Shown here piece by piece: positions 4,546 to 19,092 of a stretch of DNA of 22,664 nt (within the stretch, counting starts at the first letter, position 1; the number at the start of each line of letters is the position of its first letter). Origin of the DNA: a virus. The notes beneath the pieces are model-generated. The model ran no database searches. It was not told where the DNA came from and was given only the letters and a program-made list of their open reading frames with translations. A program made the position numbers and the translations under genes. The stretch spans positions 1 through 22,664 of the IMG/VR virus record IMGVR_UViG_3300031977_002836. The stretch is one strand, 5' to 3'.

Positions 4546-4559
4546 GTTCTTATCTTCGT

Positions 4560-4587
4560 TTGGTTTCCAAATCTCGCAACAGTTAAT
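4560..4587 (-). promoter_or_regulatory. Repeated intergenic element, copy 1 (variant core)
   Basis: In the sense of the phage genes it reads ATTAACTGTTGCGAG, then CCAAA at the same offset as the CCAAC box of other copies. The core is the most divergent of the six (GCGAG for GCCGG). It begins 2 bp after the TAG of the upstream gene, and 29 bp separate it from the ATG at 4545. No plus-strand gene adjoins it, so the element exists independently of cargo. A short hairpin, TTTGG-AAA-CCAAA, overlaps the second box. Confidence 0.6.
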
Positions 4588-4589
4588 CG

Positions 4590-5498
4590 CTACGGATTAA
4601 CCGAAATCACGATCCAGCGATCATCGCCCGTGTCGTAAATCAGCATCGCACTTCCACGCGCTGTAATCGTCACCTTGTTTGCGGTCATCGTGTAGATGCG
4701 ATTTGCAGCAGTTGATTCACCTGAATCGTCGTGCAGCAAATCTAAGGTGTTGGTTGTGCTGGAGTTGTACAGAATCAGAAAACGACCATTCTCTCCTCCG
4801 CTGATCCCCTTGATGTCTGTGTCCGCAGACAAGCTGCCAATTTTCACAAACACCGCATTGGCTGGATTAAGAGTGACTGTTCCACCGCCGGTGATTGCCG
4901 TGTCGTTCTTAACCTGAAATTTCAACTTGGCCGCATTGGTCAAAGCCAGCGTGCCGGACATCGTGCTTCCTGCTTTGGCAACGAACGTCGCGTCTGCTTG
5001 TGCCTCGGTGTAGTAGCCGGTGACAGGTGGCGTTGTCGGAGTGCCGGTCTTGATGCTGTCTGCCTTGATGGTCACGATCTCTTGCACCTCGGTCGAGTAA
5101 TTCGATCCACCGCTGACCTCGACTTCAAAGGTGGCGGTTGCACTTGTGTCTGAACCAAGCAACGACTCAATCGATGGTGTGCCGGTGTTGTTGAGAATGA
5201 GGTTTCCGCTGTACGTGTTCGTGGACGAATCAAATGTCAGCGTGGCGTTTGTGTAGACCGATGAGCTGGCCGGAATTGGGTGCGGCGTTCCGATGGCAAT
5301 CTTGACCGTGTAGCTCGTCGAGATGACGTCAAAAGGGGTCGTCAGTCCACCGGTCGTGTTCGGTTCAAGCAGCTTGAGTTCAACCGCTAGAACGTCGCCC
5401 TGAAAGAAAGTCGGAAGTGTAAAGTCGCTGGCGTCAGTATCAGACTGCACCAGTTTGTTGTTTTGGGTATCGACGTAGAGTTTCAGCGAGTTAGCCAT
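4590..5498 (-). CDS. Tail fibre / baseplate protein
   Basis: 302 residues from the ATG at 5498; the TTG one codon earlier is less likely. The N-terminal half (L-Y-V-D-T-Q-N-N-K-L-V, then F-Q-G-D-V-L-A-V-E-L-K-L-L near residues 33-45) resembles the N-terminal beta-sandwich of baseplate or fibre-adaptor proteins of the BppU type. Residues about 165-190 contain Y-Y-T-E-A-Q-A-D-A-T-F-V followed by G-S-T-M-S-G-T-L-A-L, a common phage-fibre stalk motif. The C-terminal half is a repetitive beta-rich region ending D-D-R-W-I-V-I-S-V. The gene follows element copy 2 and probably opens a fibre transcription unit. Confidence 0.75.
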   Translation of the reverse strand: MANSLKLYVDTQNNKLVQSDTDASDFTLPTFFQGDVLAVELKLLEPNTTGGLTTPFDVISTSYTVKIAIGTPHPIPASSSVYTNATLTFDSSTNTYSGNLILNNTGTPSIESLLGSDTSATATFEVEVSGGSNYSTEVQEIVTIKADSIKTGTPTTPPVTGYYTEAQADATFVAKAGSTMSGTLALTNAAKLKFQVKNDTAITGGGTVTLNPANAVFVKIGSLSADTDIKGISGGENGRFLILYNSSTTNTLDLLHDDSGESTAANRIYTMTANKVTITARGSAMLIYDTGDDRWIVISVNP

Positions 5499-5511
5499 CA
5501 ACTCTTAATTT

Positions 5512-5544
5512 AAAGGCTACGCTGAATTTCCGGCAACAGTTAAT
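5512..5544 (-). promoter_or_regulatory. Repeated intergenic element, copy 2
   Basis: The core CCGGCAACAGTTAAT is perfect at 5530-5544 and lies 31 bp from the ATG at 5498. The second CCAAC box is absent and is replaced by an A+T-rich stretch (TTTAAATTAA in phage sense) where a -10 region could lie, about 17 bp from TTGCCG. On the far side a plus-strand cargo gene begins (5595). Confidence 0.65.
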
Positions 5545-5594
5545 CAGAGGCCAAATCGGTTGACCGCGAATGGGCATTGCCTTTAAGTCGGTGC

Positions 5595-5765
5595 GTGATC
5601 ATAAGAATTGCCGCTGTGTTTGCTGGATTGCTTTTAGTAGGCGTTGGAATAATGCAGTTATTAAAAGGAAAGTTTGAGGGAGAGGCAATTGGCGCCATTC
5701 CTCTTGGTGCTTTGTTTATTTTTTTTGGAATCACTGGGAAAAAAGGTAAACCGCTTGACCGTTAA
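5595..5765 (+). CDS. Small two-helix membrane protein (plus-strand cargo gene)
   Basis: 56 residues from a GTG at 5595 (MIIRIAAVFAG); a TTG at 5577 would add six residues. Residues about 3-22 form one membrane helix and about 30-48 a second, joined by a short charged loop (K-G-K-F-E-G-E), and the protein ends with a basic tail (G-K-K-G-K-P-L-D-R). It reads against all surrounding phage genes and sits between element copy 2 and the end of the gene at 5996, so it looks like an acquired cargo gene. Small membrane proteins in such positions often mediate superinfection exclusion; that role is a guess here. The start codon is uncertain because no clear Shine-Dalgarno is visible. Confidence 0.6.
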   Translation: MIIRIAAVFAGLLLVGVGIMQLLKGKFEGEAIGAIPLGALFIFFGITGKKGKPLDR

Positions 5766-5789
5766 TGTGGACTGGCGTTTCATCTGGCT

Positions 5790-5930
5790 GTGGGGCCGAG
5801 TCCAGCAGAATTAGCCAGAGACATTTCGGGTGGCATCCAAACTGGGATGTTTGTCTTGCTGTTTATATTTGCTTCGGCTTTTGTTCTTGGCCTCGCATGG
5901 TCTTCAGCGAAGAAGAAAAAGAAGAAGTAG
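5790..5930 (+). CDS. Possible 46-residue single-helix membrane protein with lysine tail
   Basis: From a GTG at 5790 the frame encodes an amphipathic start (M-G-P-S-P-A-E-L-A-R-D-I-S-G-G-I-Q), one membrane helix (F-V-L-L-F-I-F-A-S-A-F-V-L-G-L-A-W) and a C-terminal run of six lysines, then TAG. This N-helix, membrane segment, cationic tail plan is seen in small holins and other phage membrane peptides. It lies in the same frame as the preceding cargo gene, separated by that gene's TAA at 5763, so it could also be a detached C-terminal piece of a formerly longer protein. No Shine-Dalgarno is visible. It is supported only by its hydrophobic pattern. Confidence 0.35.
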   Translation: MGPSPAELARDISGGIQTGMFVLLFIFASAFVLGLAWSSAKKKKKK

Positions 5931-5995
5931 TTCATCGCTTCGCACTCCCCCATCCATCGCGGTCTAAGCCAAGTGCGTCTCAGGAGCAGTGACGT

Positions 5996-8857
5996 TCAGG
6001 CCGAGTGCGTGGTCGGTGGATTGACTTGGCAAAAGTAAAGTTGCTGAGAAGAACCTGAACCTGAAATCGTCACTTCGTCGGCATTCAAATTGGTGATCGT
6101 ATCGCTCCCAACTTGGCCTGAGCTATCCACGGTTTTCTTTGCCAGTTTTGCCCTTGTGCCCGTGGACGGATGTCCGTCTCTACTTGTGTCGTGGAGGTAA
6201 AACAAAACTGCCGGATTGGCATCTGTCGCCACGCCAACCAGCCTTGAGTAGACAGCGTTCGAGTTGTTGCCCAAATGACTGATGTCCAAGATCGACTCGG
6301 TCAAACCGCTAATGTAGCTCGGCCCCGAAAGCACTGCCTTTTGGATCGGCGTTTTCCAATTGCCTGAACTTGCTGGCCTGAACGTATCCACGTCCACAGT
6401 CGTGTTGCCAAACGGAATTGTTTCTCGGGCAAACGACAGAATCTGAAACTGGTCTTCATACCGAAACTTAAAACCCATCGCTGCTGCCTTTGCTTTGACG
6501 TTGGCAATGGTCACCCACCGCACATCTGCAATCGCAGTTTGATCCGGCGATAGAGAGTTGGTGAAAATGTCGTCAGGAAAATCACTCACACCGCTTGAAC
6601 CTCCGATGGATACGCCTAGACGCTGCCACAGCAAATGCTGGGTCGAGCCACTCGGAAAAGTGGCGTAAGCATCCTTTGGCATATATTTGATCGAGGTGTT
6701 TGCGTAGAGGTTTGTGATCGATGTCTCTGGCTTGGCGTTTCCAAAATAAATCTCATCAAAACAAAGCGGACGAATCTTTGTGCACTTTTTTAGAATGGTG
6801 ACCAGATCGTTGTAGTGCTCTTTCAGCAAATTCATCCGAATGTAGAGTGTATCGTCACCTGTCAGCGCGTTCGTGAAGGTCGTGTAATTTGCGGCAGCAG
6901 ACTTTTGCAGCTCAAGTTCGTGTGAAACATCTCCGGCCAAGGTTAATGGATAGCTGCGATTGTCTGTCAGGTTAATGCTGAACGGTTCAATCTTGGTGTT
7001 CACTTTGACCGTCTGAAAAGCAACGTCGGACTCGACCAAGTTGCCGATGTTGTTCTGAGTGAAGTCCGCACCGTCGTCGCCAACCGGATCGTTGTTGATG
7101 TCCAGATGCGTGTACGCACTGCCCCTGTCCTCGTACTTTTTGCCGTGCTTTGGCCCTTCAAACATCCGGTGGTAGTCCGTGGTGTTGTTGCCTGCAATTG
7201 GCCAGCCACGACCCGATCCGGTTGAATCAAGGACATAGGCAATCGCCCTGTCCTGCTTGATCTGAATCTGAGCATCGTTTGATGTGTCAACGTACACATC
7301 GAAGTAGTGGTTGCGATTGAACCCGTTAAAATAAATTGTTGGATTGGTTGGCGTAAGAACTGTGGCGATTGGCCAATCCTCCGTTGAAAACATCACCGGC
7401 CCTTCAGTTGTAGACTTTAGCTGAGTGCCGCTTGCACTGGCGTAACTGCCAAGGTTGGTTGTGTAATCTGAGAAGTATTGAGTCCGTGTTGTTGTTGCTG
7501 CATTCAGCGTGTCCGTGATGCTGATTCCAGTTGTTCCGTTTGAGTAGGTTGGTCTCGCGCTGTCGCCTGCACGCACCGGTTTTCCAATGCCGGTTTGCAG
7601 ATACACATTTGCACCGTTGCTCCCGACGTTAATCACCCTCGGGTTGTCGTTGTAAGTCAGCAGGTTTGAGGTTTTCTGCCAAAGATAAAAGTAGTCGTAG
7701 GTTGCCGACTTTGTGATGCGAGCTTTTGCGTAGATGTCAGAACCGTATGAAAGCGCGAGAGTCAATCCGGCTGCGTTAAAGGCTGAGACCACTGTGTCAA
7801 ACCCGTCAAAGCTGATCGTTCCATATTCTGGAGTCGCGCTGCTTGTAGTGACTCGCATATAGCTGAGATCGCCTTTGTGAAATATCAGATCACCGATTTT
7901 GGTTGATGCGCTTATCGCTGGCAAATGCTCGGCATCTTCGTAGTCATCTCCAACATCAGTGTAGGTGTGCGCGTCGAACACAATTCTTGTCGGATGCCTA
8001 AAGTCGCCCAAATCCTCGGAGCTATTTTTGCGTTCACCTACGTTCTCCAAAATGTTGTAGAGGAATGAAGCGTTGGTGATGTTGTTGGCCCGCATTGAGT
8101 TTGGGACAAAGCCACTGTGTGACTTGAAGTACAGATACCTTGGATCGTTAACGTTGCACTTGAAGAAATACTTGTAGGATGCGTCGTACCCAGCAGATAC
8201 AGAGTCGCGCCTCACGCACTTTTGGGAATACTTCGGAACAGACAGATTGAAGTAGTTGCTTGAAGAAGTGCCAAAATAAAACGTGATGTCGTTTCCGGTC
8301 AGGTTGTGAATCTTGAAGCAGTTGTACTTGTTGTAGTCGTTGCTGAACTCAAACTTGTACCCACCTGACCCATCAGAAACCGCATCGCCGATTAGCAGTT
8401 CCGCAGTGGCAAACCTCCACTTCTTTTCGCTGTATGGCTGCCCTTTGTCCCACAGATAATACTCAACACCGTTGTGCGTGCGCGTATGGGCTTTGAGCGA
8501 ATCATTCAGTCCAATGTCGGCTGACGTGATCGCGTAGTTTGGTGAAGCGTTGTAGTAGGTGATCGTAGCCCCGTTGGCAGCCGTATCGTAGGTGCTTTGG
8601 TTGTAGCTGGTCGGGAGTGGGTTTTGGATGCCGTGCAGCACGCTGACGTCGGTCGCGTCGTGGTTGCCCGAAGTGTAAAAGAAAAACTCTTTGCCGCGAA
8701 TGATGGGATCGCTTGGCGTTATTTTTGCCAGCTGATTAACCAAGTAGGTCGATTTGCCATCAAGTGCCTTGTCGATGATCGAATCAGCTTCCGACCAAAG
8801 CTCATTCATCTTGGCAGCCGTTGGCTGCTCGTTGCCGCTCAGATAACTTACAGCCAC
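5996..8857 (-). CDS. Large tail-tip / central tail protein, uncharacterised
   Basis: 953 residues from a GTG at 8857 that overlaps the end of the preceding small gene by 10 bp. Residues 1-40 (E-Q-P-T-A-A-K-M-N-E-L-W-S-E-A-D-S-I-I-D-K-A-L) are likely helical. The rest is a long aromatic-, N- and T-rich beta region with many Y-F and Y-Y pairs and no transmembrane helix. It is the largest protein in the window and lies after the tape measure and two small tail genes, where siphoviruses encode tail-tip hub or host-specificity proteins. I see no peptidase or glycosidase motif. It is the last phage gene before element copy 2. Confidence 0.7.
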   Translation of the reverse strand: MAVSYLSGNEQPTAAKMNELWSEADSIIDKALDGKSTYLVNQLAKITPSDPIIRGKEFFFYTSGNHDATDVSVLHGIQNPLPTSYNQSTYDTAANGATITYYNASPNYAITSADIGLNDSLKAHTRTHNGVEYYLWDKGQPYSEKKWRFATAELLIGDAVSDGSGGYKFEFSNDYNKYNCFKIHNLTGNDITFYFGTSSSNYFNLSVPKYSQKCVRRDSVSAGYDASYKYFFKCNVNDPRYLYFKSHSGFVPNSMRANNITNASFLYNILENVGERKNSSEDLGDFRHPTRIVFDAHTYTDVGDDYEDAEHLPAISASTKIGDLIFHKGDLSYMRVTTSSATPEYGTISFDGFDTVVSAFNAAGLTLALSYGSDIYAKARITKSATYDYFYLWQKTSNLLTYNDNPRVINVGSNGANVYLQTGIGKPVRAGDSARPTYSNGTTGISITDTLNAATTTRTQYFSDYTTNLGSYASASGTQLKSTTEGPVMFSTEDWPIATVLTPTNPTIYFNGFNRNHYFDVYVDTSNDAQIQIKQDRAIAYVLDSTGSGRGWPIAGNNTTDYHRMFEGPKHGKKYEDRGSAYTHLDINNDPVGDDGADFTQNNIGNLVESDVAFQTVKVNTKIEPFSINLTDNRSYPLTLAGDVSHELELQKSAAANYTTFTNALTGDDTLYIRMNLLKEHYNDLVTILKKCTKIRPLCFDEIYFGNAKPETSITNLYANTSIKYMPKDAYATFPSGSTQHLLWQRLGVSIGGSSGVSDFPDDIFTNSLSPDQTAIADVRWVTIANVKAKAAAMGFKFRYEDQFQILSFARETIPFGNTTVDVDTFRPASSGNWKTPIQKAVLSGPSYISGLTESILDISHLGNNSNAVYSRLVGVATDANPAVLFYLHDTSRDGHPSTGTRAKLAKKTVDSSGQVGSDTITNLNADEVTISGSGSSQQLYFCQVNPPTTHSA

Positions 8858-9048
8858 ACCGCTTTTCCTGAGCCAGCGGAGGTTTCAGTTGCTTGCGCTT
8901 GTGCGGCACGAATCACGCCGCTGCTCGTGAAGCGCGTCTGAACATTTGCTGAACGAACCGGACGAAGGTTTTTGACCATCTCACGCATATGATTGTGAAA
9001 GGTCGCCTCGCGACCGAAGCCACGTAGTTTGTTTGGAAGGCGTCTCAT
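8848..9048 (-). CDS. Small basic tail protein
   Basis: 66 residues from the ATG at 9048 (MRRLPNKLRGFG), which overlaps the stop of the preceding gene as ATGA; a longer upstream reading would run deep into that gene. The N-terminal half is basic with many R, K and H. The C-terminal half (V-Q-T-R-F-T-S-S-G-V-I-R, then S-A-G-S-G-K-A-V-W-L) ends in a short hydrophobic W-L. Its stop overlaps the GTG start of the 953-residue protein, so the three genes are coupled. It is probably a small tail-tip or baseplate component. The family is not recognised. Confidence 0.65.
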   Translation of the reverse strand: MRRLPNKLRGFGREATFHNHMREMVKNLRPVRSANVQTRFTSSGVIRAAQAQATETSAGSGKAVWL

Positions 9049-9851
9049 GAGTAAGCCGGATACAACCAAGTCGGCCAAAGCCCGAGCCAATATTCTGTTG
9101 TGCGCTCAAACTTGCCGCCGGTTGTTTGGGTGATATTCGGGGCTTTCTTCAGCCAGCGGTAGTACCACTTGCTGGTTCCGTCTGCCATGTTGGCGTTGTC
9201 GTTGGTTGGCGTAGTGTTTGCGGCAATCGCAGAAATAGACGCTGCCATCGCTGTTGGAAGCGTACCCTCAGCAGTTTCAATTTGTGTTTTTGTCCACAGC
9301 TTCCCGACGCCAGCCATTGAAACGCCAACCGTATAAAGTGAACTAACCAACTCCCTCTTGGTGAGGGCAAACTCAAAATCCAGCCAGTTGTATTGGTCGC
9401 GCAGGAAGAACCAGAACAGGTTTTTCTGAGAAGCGTTCCATCCTGAGCCAATAAAGGTTGAAGCATTGGCAGTTTCAGTTGATGCCTTTGCCTTGGCAGC
9501 AGCACGTTCCACGTCGGTGATCTGGTTATCAGACAACGACCGCACCGCATCTGCCTCACGCAAATCACGTTGCACTTCGTTGCTGTTCAAATCCCAAGTG
9601 GTTGTGATGTCTACGGCAGCATCATTAGCCGCACCAGTTACGTCGCGCCCAACGGTTGCAATCAGCCGCGACGTTGGCCCATCGGTGTCGATCTGTATTT
9701 CATCGGCCCAAAGTGTGACGTTGCCAGCGATGCCGAGGATGTGCGCCCTGCTCCCTTCGTAAACAACCTGACTCTGCCATCCTTCAGTCTTTGACCAAGT
9801 GAACCTTGTATCGGTCTGCGTGACTCCGTTGTACCCCTTAAAAACCGCCAT
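9045..9851 (-). CDS. Tail protein downstream of the tape measure (distal tail / tail-tip candidate)
   Basis: 268 residues (M-A-V-F-K-G-Y-N-G-V-T-Q-T). The N-terminal third is beta-rich. The middle (about residues 95-125, E-V-Q-R-D-L-R-E-A-D ... D-V-E-R-A-A-A-K-A-K-A) is helical and charged. The C-terminus is rich in tryptophan (W-Y-Y-R-W-L-K-K ... Y-W-L-G-L-W-P-T-W-L-Y-P). Its stop and start overlap both neighbours, and it directly follows the tape measure gene, where distal tail proteins are normally encoded. No family motif is certain, so the assignment rests on order. Confidence 0.7.
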   Translation of the reverse strand: MAVFKGYNGVTQTDTRFTWSKTEGWQSQVVYEGSRAHILGIAGNVTLWADEIQIDTDGPTSRLIATVGRDVTGAANDAAVDITTTWDLNSNEVQRDLREADAVRSLSDNQITDVERAAAKAKASTETANASTFIGSGWNASQKNLFWFFLRDQYNWLDFEFALTKRELVSSLYTVGVSMAGVGKLWTKTQIETAEGTLPTAMAASISAIAANTTPTNDNANMADGTSKWYYRWLKKAPNITQTTGGKFERTTEYWLGLWPTWLYPAYS

Positions 9852-11200
9852 CAGAAAATTCTCCCTGCCGATTGCTGCCTCGCCAGCATTGCACGTTGTA
9901 CCTCTAAGGTTTGCCGCGCCACATCAAGCTGTTGTCTGCCAACCTGAATCAAAGGGTTTGCTCGTTTAGCAAACGCACCAACACCTTGGCTTGCGGTTTG
10001 AGTCATTGCGCGTGGGCTGCCTGTTCCTGCTGCTGCGGCTGTTTGGATACCTTGCATCTGTTGAAACAAATCAAAGTCCTGCCCCATCAGCTCAAATCGT
10101 TCTTTGCCGGTCTTGGCTTTCCGAATCTTCTCAAACAACGCCAACCGCTGCGCAAACAGTGCATTGAGTTGCTGCTCTTTTGACATCTGCTTGAAAGCAG
10201 CGTCGTTGATTTTCTTTTGCAGTGCCTCTTGGGCTTTTCTTGCTTCGATCTCGTCGTTAATTCCTTTTGATGAACGAGTAGAAGGCGAAGATTTTCCGCT
10301 CCTTCTTTTCTCAATTGCCTTCTCTCGCTTTTCAACCTCTTCAACAACACCTAAATATTCACGGCCAACTGCCCTAACCGAATCAAGCACAGCCCTAAAA
10401 AACCCACGACCCGATTCAAGGGTTCCGACAAAGGTTCCAGCAGCAGCCATTATCTTTGTAAACGGATTAATGAATTTTAATCCATCTGAAAGATAAGTGA
10501 ACACTTGGCCAAGAATCATAACAATGTCGCCCCAGAAAGCGCGAAGGCGCATGGATGCAATCTGCATCTCAACCATTTGATCGGCCACGTCTTGGATGTT
10601 TCCTCCATCCATGATGATGCCAAGGTCTTCTGCCTCCTTGCGCATCTCCTCCAAACCCTTCTTTCCCATCATCAATGCGGGAGCGAGTTTGCGGCCAAGG
10701 TCATCTCCGAGGTTCCGCACGATGGCTGTCAGCGCACGGTTTTTGTCCGAAGTATTGGAAACAGCATCAGCAAACAGCTCAAACAGTTGCTGTGGGTTTT
10801 TGCCGCGAAGTTGATCAACGGTGATGCCAACCAAACGGAAGTCCTCAATCATTGACTCCGTTCCAGCTAAGGCGTCCTCAGTGCGGTCGGCAAGGGTCGC
10901 AAAGGCATCACTGGTATCACTCAGCTCCAAGCCAAAACGCGCAAAAACGTACTCCCACTTTTGGAGTTCGTCTGTGGTCATTCCAAGCGCAGGAGCCAAT
11001 TCTGAAACCTCCTTGGCAAACTCACCAACCTCCTTTGCCTTACTTGCAATAAAGCCGACAGAAAGCGCACCAGCAACCGCACCCTTCAGGCTGCCGACGA
11101 TGTTGGCCTGCGTCTTCTTGGCAGTCGTCTGCGCCTTCTTCATGCCTGCCTCATAGGCGCGGCCATCAAAAGACAATATTGCTTTGAGATTAGCTGCCAT
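9851..11200 (-). CDS. Tail tape measure protein (short)
   Basis: 449 residues. The N-terminus (A-I-L-S-F-D-G-R-A-Y-E-A-G-M-K-K-A-Q) is typical of tape measure proteins, followed by a Q/T/K-rich helical start and a glycine/alanine hydrophobic patch (G-A-V-A-G-A-L-S-V-G-F-I-A). Most of the rest is long helix. A membrane-like stretch lies around residues 225-260 (W-G-D-I-V-M-I-L-G-Q-V-F). The C-terminal half is strongly charged coiled coil with Q-rich repeats. At about 1.5 angstroms per residue, a known tape measure relation, it would set a tail near 65-70 nm. Its start overlaps the chaperone stop as TGATG. Confidence 0.85.
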   Translation of the reverse strand: MAANLKAILSFDGRAYEAGMKKAQTTAKKTQANIVGSLKGAVAGALSVGFIASKAKEVGEFAKEVSELAPALGMTTDELQKWEYVFARFGLELSDTSDAFATLADRTEDALAGTESMIEDFRLVGITVDQLRGKNPQQLFELFADAVSNTSDKNRALTAIVRNLGDDLGRKLAPALMMGKKGLEEMRKEAEDLGIIMDGGNIQDVADQMVEMQIASMRLRAFWGDIVMILGQVFTYLSDGLKFINPFTKIMAAAGTFVGTLESGRGFFRAVLDSVRAVGREYLGVVEEVEKREKAIEKRRSGKSSPSTRSSKGINDEIEARKAQEALQKKINDAAFKQMSKEQQLNALFAQRLALFEKIRKAKTGKERFELMGQDFDLFQQMQGIQTAAAAGTGSPRAMTQTASQGVGAFAKRANPLIQVGRQQLDVARQTLEVQRAMLARQQSAGRIF

Positions 11201-11796: not shown

Positions 11797-11802
11797 GCAA
11801 GA

Positions 11803-12195
11803 TTAGCTCGAGATGTTGGTGGCAATGTACTGGGTCAGCTCAAACGTGTAGCGGGTTTCTCCGTCCACTGAACTTTCCTGACTTCCACCAATCAAAGTGT
11901 ATTTACCCGAGTGCGCACCGATCATGTCAGCCTTACCGGTTCCACCGACTGTCACCATTGCCCCAAGAGCCGGAAATGCAGCCCGAGCCGTTGGAATGAC
12001 CTCAATCGTGAGATCGGCTTTTGCGTTGTGCAGTATCAGCGTTTGGCACTCACCGTCGTCGCCCATGATTTCCTTTTGAGCCGACGAAACTGAGCGACTG
12101 AACGATTGCTCAATGCCACTGCCAACAATTCCCGTGCCCGATGCAGTTATGCCATCGACCGACCAGATTACCGTTGTTCCTTTCTGAACAGACAT
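11803..12195 (-). CDS. Major tail tube protein
   Basis: 130 residues, beta-rich, starting M-S-V-Q-K-G-T-T-V-I-W-S-V-D-G-I. It contains G-T-G-I-V-G-S-G-I-E-Q-S-F-S-R and a central I-E-V-I-P-T-A strand, a size and pattern matching tail tube subunits of the lambda gpV / HK97 fold. It is followed by the chaperone and tape measure, as expected. Tail tube protein is needed in many copies, and this gene has its own copy of the repeated element 33 bp before its ATG, consistent with a dedicated promoter. No Shine-Dalgarno is visible (CCTTTGAAATG). Confidence 0.75.
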   Translation of the reverse strand: MSVQKGTTVIWSVDGITASGTGIVGSGIEQSFSRSVSSAQKEIMGDDGECQTLILHNAKADLTIEVIPTARAAFPALGAMVTVGGTGKADMIGAHSGKYTLIGGSQESSVDGETRYTFELTQYIATNISS

Positions 12196-12214
12196 TTCAA
12201 AGGTTCAGTTTAGG

Positions 12215-12242
12215 TTGGTTCGGAAAGTCGGCAACAGTTAAT
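12215..12242 (-). promoter_or_regulatory. Repeated intergenic element, copy 3
   Basis: The core is TCGGCAACAGTTAAT (one change from consensus) at 12228-12242, with the CCAAC box at the standard offset and TAAACT 16 bp from TTGCCG in phage sense. It stands 33 bp before the tail tube start at 12195. The zinc-ribbon cargo gene begins on its other side. Confidence 0.65.
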
Positions 12243-12275
12243 CGGCATTGATTTTGGGTTGAAGCAGTGGGTGGA

Positions 12276-12728
12276 ATGTTTATTTTTCCCGAAATGGAAA
12301 TCGAGTGCCCAAGCTGTAAAGAGCAGATTTTGATTCCAGACGACGAATTGACAGAGGTTTTTGAGTGTCCTTTTTGTCTGCAAACAATCGAGCTTGAGCA
12401 ACAGAAGGAGGATGAAGTTCTTCCTCCAAAAATTGATTCCAAAGAAAAACCGAAGGCAAGTCATGAGCCGCCGCCTGCTTCAGCACCGCTGCCAAGTGCT
12501 GAAAGCATTATGAACGACTTTCGAGGGCCGCTGCTTATGCCGTGCCCAGCCTGCGGGAAAAGCGTCAGTAAGAAGGCTGACATTTGCGCTGGTTGTGGCC
12601 ATCCAATTTACAGCGGATTCCTAGGCACAGCCGGAACGCGCAGGGCATTGAATATTATCTTTCTGGCAGCAATAATATTTCTTCTGTTCGGTTGCCTTTT
12701 TAGTCCAAATTTCGTGTCACGTCTTTAG
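12276..12728 (+). CDS. Double zinc-ribbon membrane protein (plus-strand cargo gene)
   Basis: 150 residues from the ATG at 12276; GTG 12267 and ATG 12294 are alternatives. The first zinc ribbon is C-P-S-C ... C-P-F-C near residues 10-36. A proline-rich linker follows (P-P-P-A-S-A-P-L-P-S-A), then a second ribbon, C-P-A-C-G-K ... C-A-G-C-G near residues 90-112, and one C-terminal membrane helix (I-I-F-L-A-A-I-I-F-L-L-F-G-C-L-F). Such membrane-anchored zinc ribbons are frequent in Verrucomicrobiota and Planctomycetota but their function is unknown. It lies on the opposite strand to the phage genes, and its last 12 bp overlap the 3' end of the convergent gene at 12717. Confidence 0.75.
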   Translation: MFIFPEMEIECPSCKEQILIPDDELTEVFECPFCLQTIELEQQKEDEVLPPKIDSKEKPKASHEPPPASAPLPSAESIMNDFRGPLLMPCPACGKSVSKKADICAGCGHPIYSGFLGTAGTRRALNIIFLAAIIFLLFGCLFSPNFVSRL

Positions 12729-13574
12729 TTTAGATTTTCGAGCAGCAGCTTCAATTGCCTGTTGCGTGCGCTTTCTGAGGTTATCCGTTTGGCTTTTAAT
12801 TGCCTTTTGCATAATGCGATTGCGTGCACCGTGTTTCTGCATATAGCTGATCTCGTTGCTCACCATCACTGACGGGAAGATCGGATGATCAACTGAAACC
12901 CGCACCCTGCCTCCACGAGTGCCGTGGCCCTTTATCCACTTTGGCCTTGGTGTTTTAAGTGCGGTCGCAGCTTTGTTCCAACCGCCTTTGCCTTTGCCGA
13001 TGCGCTTCTTCAGATACTTCATGTAGGCATTGAACCGCTGCTTCGTGATGAACATCTTGTCGAGAAACACATGACGACCAATCTGCAAATCTTCTCGTCC
13101 AGCTTGTGAGACACGGCCACGAGAGTTTCGGTACTTGTTGTGGTGCGCCTTCATCGTGCTGATGCTGGCGTCGGGTTGGTAGAGATTGTGTTCAACGCCA
13201 AACACGCGCCCGTCCTTCGTTGCCCAGATTGCGTGCTGCATTCCTGCCATGTCCTTGCCGAGTGTTTCCTGCCACTTCTCGGCCTTCTTGAACGTGGACA
13301 TCTTGCGAACTCGAAACACACCGCCCTTCCCATTTTTGCCAAGCAGATCACCAACGATTGCGTTCTCGCCGATCTTCTTTTGCTTCGCCCATTGTATTTT
13401 TCCCTTCTCGTCTGCGAACGCCGTGCGCTGGTCGTTCGGCGGTGTCAGCGACATCGCATCCCGCACCACCAACTTGCCAACCTGCTTCAGCACCGAGCCG
13501 GTCTTCTTGCGCGAAGCAGTGCGAAAGTCGTTTATGGCTTTTAGAAATTCCTTGGTTTCAATGTCGATCTTCAT
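12717..13574 (-). CDS. Basic connector / tail-completion protein, possibly HK97 gp10-like
   Basis: 285 residues and strongly basic (many K and R), starting M-K-I-D-I-E-T-K-E-F-L-K-A-I-N-D-F. The helical N-terminus with K-x-V-x-x-A-x-x-x-T-P-P resembles neck or tail-completion proteins of the HK97 gp10 type, but the protein is about twice their usual length. The extra central and C-terminal part is rich in basic G-K-G-K-G-G-W and R-G-G-R-V-R-V segments. It lies between the tail terminator candidate and the tail tube, where such a protein belongs. Cargo genes on the opposite strand flank it on both sides (12276-12728 and 13590-13817). Confidence 0.6.
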   Translation of the reverse strand: MKIDIETKEFLKAINDFRTASRKKTGSVLKQVGKLVVRDAMSLTPPNDQRTAFADEKGKIQWAKQKKIGENAIVGDLLGKNGKGGVFRVRKMSTFKKAEKWQETLGKDMAGMQHAIWATKDGRVFGVEHNLYQPDASISTMKAHHNKYRNSRGRVSQAGREDLQIGRHVFLDKMFITKQRFNAYMKYLKKRIGKGKGGWNKAATALKTPRPKWIKGHGTRGGRVRVSVDHPIFPSVMVSNEISYMQKHGARNRIMQKAIKSQTDNLRKRTQQAIEAAARKSKLKT

Positions 13575-13589
13575 AAAGTCTGCTTTGCA

Positions 13590-13817
13590 ATGTTGGCTTT
13601 AGGATTAGGCATAAAAGTGTGGCACATTGTCGCGCTAGTTGTTTGGTTTATCTTTTGCTGCTATATAATTTGGAATGAGTACGAAAATGAGGGTGAAGAT
13701 TTTTTACCAGCAGCAGGCTCAGGCTGCGGTGCTTTTTTCTTCGCGCCTCCTTTGCTTTATGGTTTTTGGTTATTAATCAAATGGGTAATAGGTCTGCTGC
13801 AATTTGAGGTTTTTTAA
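13590..13817 (+). CDS. Small two-helix membrane protein (plus-strand cargo gene)
   Basis: 75 residues from the ATG at 13590. The first helix covers about residues 9-28 (H-I-V-A-L-V-V-W-F-I-F-C-C-Y-I-I-W). An acidic loop follows (N-E-Y-E-N-E-G-E-D-F), then a glycine-rich stretch and a second hydrophobic region (about residues 47-72: F-F-F-A-P-P-L-L-Y-G-F-W-L-L-I-K-W). The DNA is visibly more A+T-rich than the phage genes on either side, suggesting transfer. Unlike most of the other cargo genes it has no copy of the repeated intergenic element beside it. It fills the space between two phage genes almost completely (15 bp on each side). Function unknown. Confidence 0.65.
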   Translation: MLALGLGIKVWHIVALVVWFIFCCYIIWNEYENEGEDFLPAAGSGCGAFFFAPPLLYGFWLLIKWVIGLLQFEVF

Positions 13818-13832
13818 TATTTAGTTTGGCCT

Positions 13833-14279
13833 CTATTCACTACCGTAGCAGTAGACATCAAACGTGATCTCACCAATGAAGTAGCCATCCTCAACGCGCT
13901 GCGCGAAGGCAAAGTTCTGCGCGGCAATTGCGGTGACTGTTTCAGTTGAGTCTGCGTTGATGTTCGTCACGAGGTTCGTGTTCATGAACAAATCCCGCAC
14001 CTCAGCAACTCGACCACGATGCGTTGCCAGCGTGTTGGTTTCTGCCTGCGAGTAGATCGCGACCGTCGTTGAACACAACCAGTTGCCTGTTCCACTCGGA
14101 CTTTCCTCTGCGCTTTCCACGAGCGCGAAAATCAAATCCTCAGTGACATCGGCCGTGCTCAGTCCGGTGTGAAGCGGCACGTTCGCAATGTTGCTTCCTG
14201 TTGTCGCAGCCTGAGTGGTCAGCAGGTTTTCCAAGACCGCTTCAAGCTTCCCATCAACGTCGTTGTAAAAGGTTGGCAT
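13833..14279 (-). CDS. Tail terminator / tail completion protein candidate
   Basis: 148 residues. A helical start (N-D-V-D-G-K-L-E-A-V-L-E-N-L-L) leads into a beta region with C-S-T-T-V-A-I-Y-S and a C-terminal G-Y-F-I-G-E-I-T-F-D-V-Y-C-Y. Length and alpha-then-beta layout fit tail terminators (gpU-like), which join tail tube and head connector. Position after the head-closure candidate and before the tail tube agrees. Its start overlaps the stop of the preceding gene by 1 bp. The family assignment rests on context. Confidence 0.6.
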   Translation of the reverse strand: MPTFYNDVDGKLEAVLENLLTTQAATTGSNIANVPLHTGLSTADVTEDLIFALVESAEESPSGTGNWLCSTTVAIYSQAETNTLATHRGRVAEVRDLFMNTNLVTNINADSTETVTAIAAQNFAFAQRVEDGYFIGEITFDVYCYGSE

Positions 14280-14611
14280 TACTGCGTGAGGCTTTTGACG
14301 GTCAGCCGCAACGCTGCACCATCGGGTTGTTCAACTGAATCAATACGAAACACCGTTCCGTTCAGCGTTACGTCAAAGCACGTTGTCAGCGTGATCTTCT
14401 GACCGGCAACTGGCAGCGAACTGAAGTCGCCAACCTTGAGTTCAAAGATCGCGTCGAACTCAGGAAAGAAACCTCCTTCGTCCAAATTCCGATTCTTTGT
14501 GAGTGAACTCATCGTGCCTGAATAGGCAGTGCCCGAGTGAGTGAACGTGCACGGGAAATCGTCAAAGACGTGACCGAGGTCGCTTGCGAGTTGTTCTTCT
14601 ATTGTTGCCAT
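14279..14611 (-). CDS. Head closure / head-tail joining protein candidate
   Basis: 110 residues from the ATG at 14611 (M-A-T-I-E-E-Q-L-A); a longer frame would start inside the terminator hairpin. The protein is beta-rich in its second half (F-E-L-K-V-G-D-F-S-S-L-P-V-A-G-Q-K-I-T-L, then G-T-V-F-R-I-D-S-V), as in the small beta-barrel stopper proteins (lambda gpFII type). It is the first gene after the capsid gene, where these proteins are encoded. The ATG lies 6 bp after the U-tract of the capsid terminator, so it is expressed by read-through or from a very close promoter. Confidence 0.6.
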   Translation of the reverse strand: MATIEEQLASDLGHVFDDFPCTFTHSGTAYSGTMSSLTKNRNLDEGGFFPEFDAIFELKVGDFSSLPVAGQKITLTTCFDVTLNGTVFRIDSVEQPDGAALRLTVKSLTQ

Positions 14612-14617
14612 TGTTCC

Positions 14618-14656
14618 AAAAAAAAGAGGGACGGCGGCTTTCAAGACCGCCGCCCC
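14618..14656 (-). terminator. Intrinsic terminator after the major capsid gene
   Basis: In minus-strand sense a 10-bp G+C-rich stem (GGGGCGGCGG pairing with CCGCCGTCCC, one G-U wobble) with a 9-base loop is followed by TC and eight T residues. It lies 24 bp after the capsid stop. This is a textbook factor-independent terminator and probably lowers transcription of the tail genes relative to the capsid gene. Confidence 0.9.
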
Positions 14657-14680
14657 ATCATGGCGTCACACTACTATGAA

Positions 14681-16510
14681 TTAGGCGTTGTATTTAAGAT
14701 CGGTGATCTTAGCAAACGACTCAGGATGGCGAACAGCGATGTCCGTGAATATGGAAGTGACCAATCGCACCTGACGCTTGTGTGCCAGAGTGTAAGGATC
14801 AACCACCACGTCTATCCCTGCCCAATTACCAATCAGCAAGTCGCTGAAGTTACCGAAAACCATTGTCGTGGTTGCGGTAGCACCAGAACCAGCAGAAGCC
14901 ATTTGGTTGCTCATGTAGAACGGATAGCCATTGACCTGACCGTTCGACAAAACGAACTGTGCAGTGTTGCTGGCGATCTCTGTCCTCTTGAGCTTCTGGG
15001 CTGCGTTGGCGTTGCCGACGTAACAGAGCGAACCGGTCAAGGCGTTGTCCGTTGCGACCTGCTCCTCCAACTTGACCATCAGAGTGTATGCTCCGTCGGT
15101 TCCAGCAGAGACACTGCCGATGCCGGATGTGTTAACGATTCCGGTCGGCTGGTTTGAACTGCCAGAACCAGAAACAGCAGCAAGGTCTTGCGCAATGGCA
15201 ATCACCTGAGCCAAGTCGTTTCTGACGAACTGCTCAATGCTGATGCTGCTTTGTGCCAGCAACTGCTTTGAGTATTCCGTCATCGCGCTCAACTGCTTCG
15301 GAACCATTGTCACCTGATCAAACGCTTGGTCTGAACTGGAGAGAGTTGGAACTTCAGCAGTCCAAGATGCAGTCGCTGCACCGGTCTGCCTTGGAATCGC
15401 AACATCACCGACAAGGCCGTCGAGCTGTGTTGCGCCGGTCTGCGCAATTACAGAAGCATTACGCAAAATGTCAATAAAACTTGATCCAAGAAGATCAGTA
15501 GCCACTGTGTGCCCGCCTGCTGTGGCAGTGCCATCAACCAAGCCACGAGTGCTGTGATTGAGCACATCGGTCGGAATGACGAGGCCATCAACATTGCTGC
15601 GACCGTACTTCTTCTTGGCTGCCTCACTGACTTCGTTTTCAAAGTCGGAGAACTTGCCGCTGTTGCAGTACGAGTTCACAGCACGAACCAGAGAGAAGCT
15701 TTCGCGCTCTTTCTCGTTCAAGCCAATGTCACCATCATCCTGACGAACCTCAGTTGGTTCCTCGGTTTTCAAGTTGTTCTCAAGTATCCACCGGCTGAAT
15801 TGGCCAGCGTCCTTGCCGTCTTCGATCGCCTTTTGGGCGGCGTCGATGCAGTTGTACTTCGCGCCAAGCGCGACCAGTTCCTTGCTTCGCTTCTGCTCGG
15901 CCTTACGAACCTCAGATTCGTTGACCTCAATGCGCGGCGAAGCTTCAACTGTAAGTGTAGAATCTTCGTTCATTTTGGGTTCCTTATCGGATTTGATTTC
16001 AACCACAGGTTCTTGTTCCTCCGATGATTCCGAGCGACCTATGCCTACACTCGGATCGGCTGGGAGTGGAACGATTGAAATTTCCACGGGAACCCAATTC
16101 TTGACGTGAAAGGTAGCCAGCCCTTCGTCATTCCTCTCGGCCCTTTCCATTTCTTCAACGGTGTAACCCACAGAAACCAATCTGCGCACTTGGTCACGCA
16201 CGTCGCCCCAAATCTCTTCTGCGTATGCCGACTTGCCAAACCGCACCACGGCTCGGCCAACTCGGTCTTCATCCACTCGCGCTGATTCAACAACACCTAC
16301 GACTTTGTCAGGGTCATGGTTTACCAATACAGGTGCACCTCCTAAGAGGCGCGATAGATCAACGCTGTCTTGGTCGTGTCTTAAAATTTCGATGCCGAAG
16401 CTTCGTTCGTAGGGTGTCTCAGAACTGAAAGCGAGTTCGACGGTGCGCGACTCTTCGTCAATCGCACGCTTGTCGATGGTTAATTCTCTGAACCGTTTTT
16501 CACCGTTCAT
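14681..16510 (-). CDS. Prohead protease fused to HK97-type major capsid protein
   Basis: 609 residues from the ATG at 16510 (M-N-G-E-K-R-F-R-E-L). Residues 1-155 form an HK97-type prohead protease: V-L-V-N-H-D-P at 61-67 holds the likely catalytic histidine and L-V-S-V-G-Y-T at 111-117 the likely serine, followed by E-I-S-I-V-P-L-P-A-D-P. Residues about 160-290 are charged and helical like a scaffolding delta domain. The rest is a HK97-fold capsid protein (V-I-P-T-D-V-L ... A-I-P-R-Q-T-G ... V-A-I-P and a C-terminal D-P-Y-T-L-A-H-K-R-Q-V-R). Such protease-capsid fusions are known in other phages. The protease would cleave the delta region during maturation. Element copy 4 lies 27 bp upstream, and a terminator follows. 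Confidence 0.9.
   Translation of the reverse strand: MNGEKRFRELTIDKRAIDEESRTVELAFSSETPYERSFGIEILRHDQDSVDLSRLLGGAPVLVNHDPDKVVGVVESARVDEDRVGRAVVRFGKSAYAEEIWGDVRDQVRRLVSVGYTVEEMERAERNDEGLATFHVKNWVPVEISIVPLPADPSVGIGRSESSEEQEPVVEIKSDKEPKMNEDSTLTVEASPRIEVNESEVRKAEQKRSKELVALGAKYNCIDAAQKAIEDGKDAGQFSRWILENNLKTEEPTEVRQDDGDIGLNEKERESFSLVRAVNSYCNSGKFSDFENEVSEAAKKKYGRSNVDGLVIPTDVLNHSTRGLVDGTATAGGHTVATDLLGSSFIDILRNASVIAQTGATQLDGLVGDVAIPRQTGAATASWTAEVPTLSSSDQAFDQVTMVPKQLSAMTEYSKQLLAQSSISIEQFVRNDLAQVIAIAQDLAAVSGSGSSNQPTGIVNTSGIGSVSAGTDGAYTLMVKLEEQVATDNALTGSLCYVGNANAAQKLKRTEIASNTAQFVLSNGQVNGYPFYMSNQMASAGSGATATTTMVFGNFSDLLIGNWAGIDVVVDPYTLAHKRQVRLVTSIFTDIAVRHPESFAKITDLKYNA
15971..15985 (-). promoter_or_regulatory. 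Internal Shine-Dalgarno and start codon inside the protease-capsid fusion
   Basis: At the protease/scaffold boundary AAGGA is followed, after 7 bp, by ATG (codon 180, start of M-N-E-D-S-T-L). Spacing and sequence are ideal, and better than those of most true starts in this window. It would yield a 430-residue scaffold-capsid protein without the protease. Confidence 0.55.
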
Positions 16511-16529
16511 CTTTTTATCATCATGCGAG

Positions 16530-16552
16530 TTGGAAATCCGGCAACAGTTAAT
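16530..16552 (-). promoter_or_regulatory. Repeated intergenic element, copy 4
   Basis: The perfect core CCGGCAACAGTTAAT lies at 16538-16552, 27 bp before the protease-capsid ATG at 16510, and overlaps the TAA of the portal gene. The CCAAC box is present but 5 bp closer than in copies 1, 3, 5 and 6. TGATAA lies 18 bp from TTGCCG. There is no adjacent cargo gene. Confidence 0.65.
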
Positions 16553-17960
16553 TTGTGTCTTCTTCTGGTTTTTCCAAACCCACACTCTCAGCCAATTCCT
16601 CGTCGCGCTTGATGTCGCGCAGCACGTCCTCGATGTCTCCACCGCTTTCAGCAATAACCTGACGGCGTGACTTGAAGTGATTGTCCACTGCCTTGATCTG
16701 CGCATTCACATCCTTCTCGGGATCAACCCAACCCCAGCGTCTCGGTTTCCAATCCGGTGCGTTGAACTTCGCAAGCTTTGACGCTGGCAGATTGATTGTT
16801 CCGTTCAGAATGTTTGTCTCAAGCCATCCGTCAAAGATCGGTTGAACCACAGTGTCTATGAACCAGCGTTGAGTTGCTTTGTAGAACTCGCGCTCATCCA
16901 TCAAGCCTGCGCGAATGGATGAATAGTTCACTGATTCCAAATCCTGCGACAATGTGTGATAGCTGATGCCGAGTCCGGCAGCTATTCCACGCAAACAGCT
17001 TTTGACGAAGCCAGCATAGTTGCCGGTCGGATGATCTGGGTTCCACGATTCAAACCGTGTGCCCATTGGAAGTTCCTCAATGGAACCGGGCGAAATGTCC
17101 ATCAGCGGACTGCCATCTTCATCCATCTCACCAACGTAACCATCAGCGCGATCCTTAACAATGAAGCCCATCTTGCTTGCTGAAATGCGTGCGCTCGTGA
17201 TCTCTGCTTCCTCGTATGCGCCCAGCATTTGCAGGCGCGTCATCGCACTGACCATCCACGGATACCCGCGAGTCTGGGCGATGCGATCGGTGATGAACGG
17301 ATGAATCACCTGCTCTGCCGGTATGCGTTCGCGTGTGGCTTTGACCACGGACAAATCACTCGGGTGACGATCCAGCAGGTGATACGCAACAGGTTTTCCA
17401 TAGCGGTCAAGCTCAACGCCCATCCGCACCTCGTTACCATTCTTCAGCTTCTCGTCGTTAAACCCGAGATCAAGTCGATCGCCTTCAAGCAGTTGAAGCT
17501 GAAAGCCATTGCGATTGCGCAACATCCGAATGATGCAGTCGCCATCGCGTGCGGTTGAACGAAGTGCCAACCGCTGAATATCAAACCAAGTGAACTTGCC
17601 GTTGATGGAACAGTTGGCTGCTTTGCTCCACTCTTTCCACGCTTGTTCAATCAAATCGTTTGCGAGTGCATCCGGTCTGCCACCGTTCTCGGTGACCTTC
17701 ATCTGCAAACCGATACCAGTTGAGCCAAGCACGTTGCTTTCCAAACCGCTGAGAAATCGGCGCACATAGTCGGAATTGCGTTCCAACTCACGACAACGCG
17801 CACGAAGTCTGCCGAGTGAATTGCGAATCTCTTGGTCGGCAGTGGTGATGGGACTGAGCCAATCATTTGTCAGCCGACTCATTGACGCACCAGCGAAGTT
17901 TCGTTTTTGGATTGGTTGAAACCCAAGCCGACTCGCGATGCGGGCGATCAGTTTGTTCAT
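16548..17960 (-). CDS. Portal protein, lambda family
   Basis: 470 residues. The N-terminal pattern D-x-E-I-R-N-S-L-G-R-L-R-A-R-C-R-E-L-E-R-N, then Y-V-R-R-F-L-S-G-L-E-S-N-V-L-G-S-T-G-I-G-L-Q, is diagnostic of lambda gpB-type portals (Phage_portal_2), and L-Q-L-L-E-G-D-R-L-D near residue 157 supports this. The helical C-terminus includes the clip and stem regions and ends in an acidic tail. Portals form the dodecameric DNA gate at one capsid vertex and bind terminase. The start overlaps the gpW-like gene stop as ATGA. The stop codon lies inside element copy 4, so the promoter-like core and the end of the portal share bases. Confidence 0.92.
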   Translation of the reverse strand: MNKLIARIASRLGFQPIQKRNFAGASMSRLTNDWLSPITTADQEIRNSLGRLRARCRELERNSDYVRRFLSGLESNVLGSTGIGLQMKVTENGGRPDALANDLIEQAWKEWSKAANCSINGKFTWFDIQRLALRSTARDGDCIIRMLRNRNGFQLQLLEGDRLDLGFNDEKLKNGNEVRMGVELDRYGKPVAYHLLDRHPSDLSVVKATRERIPAEQVIHPFITDRIAQTRGYPWMVSAMTRLQMLGAYEEAEITSARISASKMGFIVKDRADGYVGEMDEDGSPLMDISPGSIEELPMGTRFESWNPDHPTGNYAGFVKSCLRGIAAGLGISYHTLSQDLESVNYSSIRAGLMDEREFYKATQRWFIDTVVQPIFDGWLETNILNGTINLPASKLAKFNAPDWKPRRWGWVDPEKDVNAQIKAVDNHFKSRRQVIAESGGDIEDVLRDIKRDEELAESVGLEKPEEDTN

Positions 17961-18556
17961 CCTTGGTAAGAGTAGCCAACAGCGTTCACACCTGTCGGCG
18001 CGACAAAGCGAATGCCGATGTTTTTGCCGCTGCGCCTGCCGTTCGCGAGGCGTTCAATTTGAACCTCTCGCTCAACGTCCTGTTTGTATTTCTCGTAGAG
18101 TTCGCGAAGTTCCTTGAGCGGGATTTTGTTAATTGAGCGACCGCCGATTGTGTACGACTCCATCCCATTTGGAATGCGCCCTTCCATTGCGGCCTCGATC
18201 AGATCAAGAACTCGACGTGCGTGGCTTCGTGGGTCGTATGCAGACGAGGAAGCTGGATTGGTAAGAACTTTGAGAATCCCGTCGTAGACGACAAACTTTT
18301 CGCTCCCTTTTGTGACGATGCCGACAATGTCGTAGACATCGGGAGTAAAAAGAGCAGTTACCGTTGCACCGACATTAACCTGAAAAGTGTCTCCGTCTGC
18401 CGTTGAACCAAAACTTGTTTCGGTTGCCCCGTTTCTTCGGAGGTAATAGCTCAGACTCCAATCGCTTGCGGGATAATCAGAAAGAGATTTGCTCCACTTC
18501 CAAGTGACTCCGGCTGTCAGCTTCTCTGGCTCGTAATCTTGAATTTCTGCGGCCAT
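17957..18556 (-). CDS. gpW-like head-tail joining protein with extra N-terminal beta domain
   Basis: 199 residues. The C-terminal half (about residues 108-185) carries R-x-x-H-A-R-R-V-L-D-L-I-E-A-A-M-E-G-R and S-Y-T-I-G-G-R-S-I-N-K-I-P-L-K-E-L-R-E-L, the helical pattern of gpW-type proteins found between terminase and portal. The N-terminal ~100 residues (A-G-V-T-W-K-W-S-K-S-L-S-D-Y-P) look like a beta-sandwich. It is 4-bp coupled to the portal gene. It starts 33 bp after element copy 5, so it likely opens the portal transcription unit. AAAGG lies 4 bp before the ATG and could serve as a ribosome binding site. Confidence 0.7.
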   Translation of the reverse strand: MAAEIQDYEPEKLTAGVTWKWSKSLSDYPASDWSLSYYLRRNGATETSFGSTADGDTFQVNVGATVTALFTPDVYDIVGIVTKGSEKFVVYDGILKVLTNPASSSAYDPRSHARRVLDLIEAAMEGRIPNGMESYTIGGRSINKIPLKELRELYEKYKQDVEREVQIERLANGRRSGKNIGIRFVAPTGVNAVGYSYQG

Positions 18557-18576
18557 TCAACCTTTAGTTTTTAAGG

Positions 18577-18604
18577 TTGGCCGTCTTTTCCGGCAACAGT
18601 TAAT
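18577..18604 (-). promoter_or_regulatory. Repeated intergenic element, copy 5
   Basis: The perfect 15-bp core lies at 18590-18604, followed in phage sense by CGGCCAAC and TAAAAAC. TTGCCG and CGGCCAA can pair around a 7-base loop with one bulge. It stands 33 bp from the ATG at 18556. The surrounding 39 bp are nearly repeated at copy 6 (19055-19092). The plus strand reads TTGGCC, 16 bp, GTTAAT, which could be a weak opposite-facing promoter. Confidence 0.65.
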
Positions 18605-18639
18605 CAGACGCAAAAATCTAACAGGTTAGATTTCATCTG
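18605..18639. promoter_or_regulatory. Palindromic operator candidate upstream of the HTH regulator
   Basis: AAATCTAAC-AG-GTTAGATTT (18614-18633) is a perfect 9-bp inverted repeat with a 2-bp centre. CAGACG and CATCTG flank it as imperfect outer arms. The very small loop and low G+C argue against a terminator. It lies between element copy 5 and the regulator gene, where an autoregulatory site would be expected. Confidence 0.55.
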
Positions 18640-18676
18640 ACTTGAATTGGCATTTTTTTCTAGAGAGTATTTCCGG

Positions 18677-19024
18677 ATGCCAAACCAAAGAAGCAAATAC
18701 AAATCGAAACTCAGCATTTGGATTCCAAGTTTTTTGAAAGAACGCGCCGATAAGCACTGCAAAGAACAAGGGATTTTTATCACTGAGTACATTGCCGCGC
18801 TTATTCAAAACGATTTGATTCTGAATCAAGATACTTTAAGGCAACCAGCGAAAAAGAATCTGATGACAGTAGCTGAAGCCTCGAATTATTTAGACGTTCA
18901 CCCAAACACCATAAGAAATTACGTTAAAGCGAAGATGATTCCGGTTCATAAATTATCAAACAGAATTTATCGCTTTAAAAAAGAAGATTTAGACAGGTTT
19001 CTTTCTGCAAAATTAAAATCTTAA
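18677..19024 (+). CDS. Ribbon-helix-helix plus excisionase-type HTH DNA-binding protein (plus-strand cargo gene)
   Basis: 115 residues from the ATG at 18677 (M-P-N-Q-R-S-K), preceded by AGAGAG at good spacing; a TTG at 18647 would add ten residues. Residues about 10-42 (K-L-S-I-W-I-P-S-F-L-K-E-R-A-D ... I-T-E-Y-I-A-A-L-I) fit a CopG/Arc-type strand-helix-helix. Residues about 61-110 (L-M-T-V-A-E-A-S-N-Y-L-D-V-H-P-N-T-I-R-N-Y ... R-F-K-K-E-D-L-D-R-F-L) fit the MerR/excisionase HTH_17 fold. Two DNA-binding units in one short chain are unusual. A palindrome lies just upstream. The A+T-rich DNA and reversed strand suggest transfer. It could regulate itself, adjacent cargo or the phage elements; there is no direct evidence for which. 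Confidence 0.75.
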   Translation: MPNQRSKYKSKLSIWIPSFLKERADKHCKEQGIFITEYIAALIQNDLILNQDTLRQPAKKNLMTVAEASNYLDVHPNTIRNYVKAKMIPVHKLSNRIYRFKKEDLDRFLSAKLKS

Positions 19025-19056
19025 ACCAACTCCCTCCACCAGTTGAACGCCTTCGG
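19021..19056 (-). pseudogene. Duplicated 3' end of the metallopeptidase gene
   Basis: Minus-strand reading gives P-K-A-F-N-W-W-R-E-L-V-stop, matching the last codons of the intact gene at 19895-19930 (34 of 36 bases identical, one residue change K to N). It has no start and no upstream body. Its TAA overlaps the TAA of the HTH gene as TTAA, just as the intact copy's TAG overlaps the ankyrin gene's stop as CTAA. It is a scar of recombination. Confidence 0.85.
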
Positions 19057-19064
19057 TTTTTAGG

Positions 19065-19092
19065 TTGGCCGCACTTTCCGGCAACAGTTAAT
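19065..19092 (-). promoter_or_regulatory. Repeated intergenic element, copy 6 (orphan)
   Basis: The perfect core lies at 19078-19092 with the CCAAC box and TAAAAAC as in copy 5. In phage sense it is followed by the 36-bp metallopeptidase remnant rather than a gene start, so it appears to be a duplicate of copy 5 left by tandem stacking. The ankyrin gene's ATG lies only 11 bp beyond it on the plus strand. Confidence 0.65.

Follow-up and report, generated by a model that had tools for sequence, protein, structure and literature searches.

A repeated intergenic element before the late gene units of a probably temperate marine phage: a putative late-unit start signal and border of reversed cargo genes

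The window analyzed here, the whole stretch of DNA under study, is a virus record of 22,664 bases, a tailed-phage fragment of which 4% is non-coding. All structural genes lie on the minus strand, and the minus-strand set comprises small and large terminase, gene A, head-tail joining, portal, protease-capsid fusion, tail, tape measure and fibre genes. Gene A (19895-20344) is small and encodes a putative metallopeptidase-like protein. A head-tail joining protein (17957..18556; phrog_5774, phrog_21) is the first gene of a late unit in which the portal gene (16548-17960) is second. The protease-major capsid fusion protein (14681..16510; phrog_617, phrog_4523) forms a single-gene late unit, and a strong intrinsic terminator stands just past it on the same strand (14628..14656; 11 pairs, 9 of them G-C, with a T8 tail). 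The tail unit is opened by the gene at 11803..12195, a tail tube gene by position and without a family match. In the fibre region, the genes at 4590..5498 and 4234..4545 were found; after the latter comes a Laminin_G_3 fibre protein (1745-4231).

A mismatch scan of the whole window with the element ATTAACTGTTGCCGG revealed six minus-strand copies in one orientation, clear of the background. Four were perfect (5530..5544, 16538..16552, 18590..18604 and 19078..19092), the copy at 12228..12242 had one change, and that at 4573..4587, ATTAACTGTTGCGAG, had 2 mismatches, in line with the match quality given in the initial annotation. The scan yielded one further weak match, intragenic and with 3 mismatches, at 6933; shuffled sequence gave 0.54 matches on average, and never more than 3, at 3 or fewer mismatches. 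With an 18-column weight matrix, the six copies scored 24-29 bits and the rest of the window at most 13.7 bits on the minus strand and 8.6 bits on the plus strand. No further site in the window comes near these scores, and the original count of six equally oriented copies is borne out. A second block, CCAACC, lies exactly 9 nt past the 15-mer at 12228 (12213-12218), at 18590 (18575-18580) and at 19078, and occurs as CCAAAC at 4573 (4558-4563).

Counted from the end of the motif to the minus-strand start codon, the spacers were 27 nt (ATG 4545, fibre region), 31 nt (5498, fibre region), 32 nt (12195, tail unit), 27 nt (16510, capsid) and 33 nt (18556, head-tail), matching the range of 27-33 nt first reported. 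When copies were placed at random in intergenic DNA, the probability of finding a minus start 27-33 nt beyond at least five of six was p ~8e-7 with orientation given and 2.6e-8 without. The element thus keeps a fixed orientation and stands shortly before the late genes that open units, as late promoters do. The weight-matrix scan found no element upstream of the window's other gene starts, among them the unit starts at 14611, 13574 and 8857. For the 19078 copy, no minus-strand start codon lies within 500 bp, and this copy serves no minus-strand gene. Two details of the initial annotation changed. The five starts do open natural units, but the gene starting at 18556 encodes the head-tail joining protein and not the portal. 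Five copies lie between genes, as described; the 16538 copy is not entirely intergenic, because the portal stop codon TAA falls inside the motif.

On the opposite side of four of the six copies (5530, 12228, 18590 and 19078), a plus-strand cargo gene starts 11-72 nt away, in an orientation opposed to the structural genes. These genes encode, respectively, a small membrane protein of 56 aa (5595..5765), a zinc-ribbon membrane protein of 150 aa (12276..12728), an HTH_17 DNA-binding protein of 115 aa (18677..19024) and an ankyrin-repeat lipoprotein of 264 aa (19104..19898), whose ATG lies 11 nt from the 19078 copy. The copies at 4573 and 16538 have no cargo neighbour, and a cargo gene for a 75-aa membrane protein (13590..13817) occupies a junction without the element. 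The distance from the element to the plus start varies; that to the minus start hardly does. By eye, the N-terminal stretch of the HTH_17 protein resembles a ribbon-helix-helix domain. No relatives of it were found in viral contigs beyond this phage and a near-identical contig, and we rejected it as the binding factor of the element since it was found in no further viral contig. Cargo content differs between related phages. The cargo recalls morons, the accessory cargo genes of temperate phages (PMC7067206), in being host-type genes at unit borders, variable among relatives and likely expressed in lysogens. Unlike those morons, the cargo here is reversed relative to the late genes, mostly abuts the same repeated element and forms arrays with a repeated linker of ~71 bp.

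This linker (19022..19092) contains the sixth copy and consists of the element, CCAACCTAAAAACC and a duplicate of the gene A 3' end. The gene A segment (19022-19059) is 95% identical to 19896-19933 on the minus strand (repeat D9), the original 3' end and source of the linker's second half. The initial annotation had overlooked this origin of the sixth copy, as well as the cargo beside four of the six copies and the optional second block. Nearly the same junction (the element, CCAACCTAAAACC with small changes, and GAAGGCGTTCAAGTGGTGGAGGGAGTTGG) was found in contigs L260, L286 and L299 (twice in the last, decayed), each time beside cargo genes. We infer from these sequences that a single duplication followed by spread best accounts for the shared junction. 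The distant phage L025/L105 carries the first linker part and the cargo start, 93% identical over 58 bp, and a 129-base linker/cargo query gave no match in isolated phages. With integron-type cassette arrays in mind, we found no integrase beside the arrays, and inspection by eye alone revealed no attC-type R-box pairs. Unrelated cargo domains (ankyrin, GDPD, endonuclease/phosphatase family) begin with closely similar signal-peptide DNA of the MKQLLITIAAVVLVGC type, shared by L260, L257, L193 and the window gene at 19104 and present in many Verrucomicrobiota genomes. Past the element in L025:10600-10820, read in the minus direction, come a 25-codon reading frame and then a strong hairpin-T terminator, which may act as an attenuator or mark where the terminase transcript ends.

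Genes closely related to head-tail or portal were identified in four viral contigs. L113/L049 is nearly the same phage, with 8 differences in 13.4 kb, and the proteins of L193, L195 and L194 are 64-86% identical to those of the window. L193 and L195 retain the element at orthologous junctions: the 16538 copy is conserved in L195 and L193, and the 18590 copy in L193 and in the bacterial contigs L259 and L257. The twelve bases ATTAACTGTTGC are invariant over ten late copies from the window, L193, L195, L259 and L257. At the capsid junction of the window and L195, the element is identical at 15/15 positions in a shared segment of 69% DNA identity; at the head-tail junction of the window and L193, it is again 15/15 in a segment of 80%. 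Conservation at orthologous sites thus exceeds that of the flanking DNA, as it should for a late promoter. The initial annotation named intragenic or randomly spaced copies in related genomes as evidence against its reading, and the copies in relatives of this lineage are intergenic. Exact element matches in unrelated viral contigs lie nearly all within long reading frames and are chance matches, and a wider pattern scan of viral contigs gave no further late-type site among the matches listed.

Upstream of the head-tail element, the flanks of the window and L193 are unrelated, while conservation extends over the element and leader. At the portal/capsid junction of L193, a reversed 0.2-kb zinc-ribbon gene (72 aa) sits 5 nt upstream of the element, its start within 8 nt of it; the window and L195 have no cargo there. 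The L193 capsid element is kept (14/15, with a 29-nt spacer), and no target duplication was seen at the insertion. Nothing upstream of ATTAAC therefore seems to be needed, and cargo appears to have been added at that edge. The L195 element at 1776 marks a cargo-free junction. A 91-base overlap of identical sequence joins L199 to L193, and the two together give the order terminase, gene A, ankyrin cargo, lipoprotein cargo, element, head-tail, portal, zinc-ribbon cargo, element, capsid. In L194, the element is absent before the head-tail gene, and a strong hairpin-T terminator lies ~70 nt before its ATG, so the head-tail gene must open a new transcript.

The integrase/TerS/TerL segments of L198, L199 and L208 contain no element. 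An integrase-family (tyrosine-integrase-type) gene adjoins the packaging genes in L208, a comparable reading frame takes this place in L198, and the phage group is therefore probably temperate; the terminase genes of both contigs are ~76-77% identical to those of the window at the DNA level. Among 71 distinct large relatives, defined by ~45% capsid identity or lower terminase identity, a repeated intergenic 12-mer was found at 1 other locus, unrelated in sequence, and the element as a general habit of related phages was rejected. Three copies of a near-palindromic intergenic 12-mer, GGCTTAATCGCC, occur in L242, another phage, at 671, 3860 and 4519.

Because the element stays intact without cargo, keeps a near-fixed distance to late starts and does not occur in the packaging or integrase segments, it belongs to the late units. 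We put it at somewhat better than an even chance that it is a lineage-specific control sequence opening each late unit, most likely as a compact late-promoter core. It probably switches on blocks of virion genes in a temperate marine phage. A role in minus-strand late-gene expression, as first proposed, is well supported at the sequence level by spacing, orthologous conservation, cargo-free junctions and terminator placement, and a promoter is a plausible form of it. On the minus strand, the element would act as a late promoter core, or at least as a cis-acting start element, with ATTAACTGTTGC[CG]RG as block 1 and CCAACC, 9 nt on, as an optional block 2. Transcripts would start in or just past the element, leaving a leader of ~20-35 nt before the start codon. 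There is no conserved sequence upstream of ATTAAC, which makes a conventional -35 box improbable and favours recognition by a polymerase or activator that the phage encodes or modifies; no gene for a recognising factor or repressor was found in the 22.7-kb fragment. A consensus scan for sigma-70-like sites (TTGACA/TATAAT-like hexamers 16-18 nt apart) gave no match at any copy on either strand, and a host sigma-70 promoter was rejected. A sigma-54 layout was also rejected, by eye, since TTGC is present with no GG 10 nt upstream.

Late promoters of the T4 and T7 types are read by phage-encoded or phage-modified RNA polymerase. Like them, the element is a short, repeated, asymmetric motif in one orientation, ~25-40 nt before virion genes and unlike host promoters; it differs in a sequence that is not known to be related to theirs. 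We found no description of the element in the literature or sequence collections searched, which is not proof of absence. If it is a late promoter, a phage group known here only from metagenomes, and probably infecting marine Verrucomicrobiota, gains both a transcription signal and a map of its units. Of the mechanisms considered, a late promoter core is the simplest, but a stoperator-like or RNA-level site would look alike in sequence. The missing sigma-70-like sites, the element-free unit starts at 14611, 13574 and 8857, its absence before the L194 head-tail gene and the lack of a recognising factor in the fragment speak against a promoter.

A repressor site of the stoperator kind, where a phage immunity protein would bind between late units and silence read-through in the prophage, seems rather unlikely. 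Its appeal lies in the layout: in temperate cluster A phages, stoperators are asymmetric sites of 12-15 bp in short intergenic gaps, oriented with transcription (PMC9283540), and the element is likewise asymmetric, oriented with transcription and placed in intergenic gaps of a probably temperate group (integrase-type genes of L198 and L208). Cluster A stoperators, however, number more than twenty genome-wide and have a known repressor (PMC9283540), whereas the element has six copies, five at late-unit starts and one in a linker. The tight start-codon spacing, the restriction to unit-opening genes and the lack of a copy before the packaging genes also argue against such a site, as does the confinement of the candidate two-domain DNA-binding cargo (18677-19024) to this phage and the near-identical contig.

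We regard as quite unlikely an RNA-level signal, either an mRNA processing site or a translation enhancer in late-gene leaders. The close and conserved distance to start codons would suit it, and the portal stop inside one copy means that the site is transcribed if read-through occurs. The start-associated sequences of cluster K phages (SAS/ESAS), proposed to act in translation, are also asymmetric repeats of the 13-bp class at gene starts, in one orientation and sometimes overlapping an upstream stop (PMC3203893). Those sequences nevertheless lie 3-7 bp from the start, contain AGGAG as a ribosome-binding core and occupy the non-structural half of the genome (PMC3203893), whereas the element stands 27-33 nt away in the structural half, has no AGGAG or other purine-rich core and does not belong to that class. 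The leaders share no common fold: 7/8 z-scores against shuffles were between -0.84 and +1.6, and an RNA hairpin as a conserved feature was rejected, folds being no better than shuffles save in the head-tail leader. In that leader (18557-18580, minus strand), a possible hairpin CCAACCTT/AAGGTTG directly before the ATG covers the AAAGG ribosome-binding stretch (whole-leader z = -3.0), and its sequence is unchanged in L193 and L259.

The element has a slender chance of being a promoter or leader of the plus-strand cargo, or a two-way promoter. The proximity of plus starts to 4/6 copies in the window points this way, and so do the 58-bp block, which includes the cargo's first codons and is kept at 93% in the otherwise divergent L025 and also precedes ankyrin genes in L257 and L259, and a plus-strand TTGG 16 nt before GTTAAT in most such copies. 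The role loses weight because the spacing to cargo starts ranges from 7 to 72 nt and some cargo genes have no element (13590; the second genes in L193/L199 and L257). Moreover, three copies are cargo-free, the ankyrin cargo's host homologues mostly share its signal-peptide DNA and not the element, and copies inside bacterial linkers (L286, L299) are decaying. That the sequence exists as a recombination or insertion target for cargo is highly improbable, even though cargo abuts the same element edge at numerous sites and copies of the linker separate cargo genes, in view of cargo at the element-free junction 13574/13833 in both the window and L195, cargo-free copies, the lack of a recombinase travelling with cargo and the lack of a target duplication in L193.

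Read as a late-unit start signal, the element would also appear to be a border for cargo docking. Host-type cargo (morons) would have been added, repeatedly and in reverse, at its outer edge, leaving the late units uninterrupted, and one such border would have been duplicated to give the ~71-bp linker found today between cargo genes of phage and bacterial contigs. More tentatively, and leaning against rather than for it, we consider that the duplicated border became a general linker that builds cargo arrays, allows cargo to pass by homologous recombination among marine Verrucomicrobiota phages and prophages and lets cargo outlive phage genes. The linker and the remnants described below suggest how temperate phages may gather and pass on host-type surface and ankyrin genes with late operons unbroken, and how these genes may persist past prophage decay.

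Bacterial genomes were scanned by exact match with TTTCCGGCAACAGTTAAT, and three contigs of relevance were found. L259, titled a Verrucomicrobiales MAG, contains sulfate-assimilation genes, then the first ~120 head-tail codons, the element and an ankyrin gene. In L257, titled a Pirellulales MAG, cargo genes are separated by phage gene ends corresponding to window positions 13435-13582, 13837-13920 (twice) and 18542-18604, and L260 carries the linker. L286 has an array and a gene A remnant near tRNA-Leu. Within the order to which the L259 genome belongs, the query matched 28/293 genomes, nearly always in the cargo signal-peptide DNA with the element not covered; the arrays of phage origin in L259 and L299, and two short partial matches, were the exceptions. 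The element as a host-wide signal was rejected, its one exact match in MAG G002 being at a phage remnant. The phage-gene remnants suggest that some of the contigs derive from decayed prophages, the host of which is probably Verrucomicrobiota; the pattern fits a temperate Verrucomicrobiota phage whose prophages decay while cargo stays. Binning errors and chimeric contigs may also give contigs like L259 and L257. In L257:3680-6018, lipoprotein, phosphoesterase and ankyrin genes alternate with cut-off phage tail and head ends.
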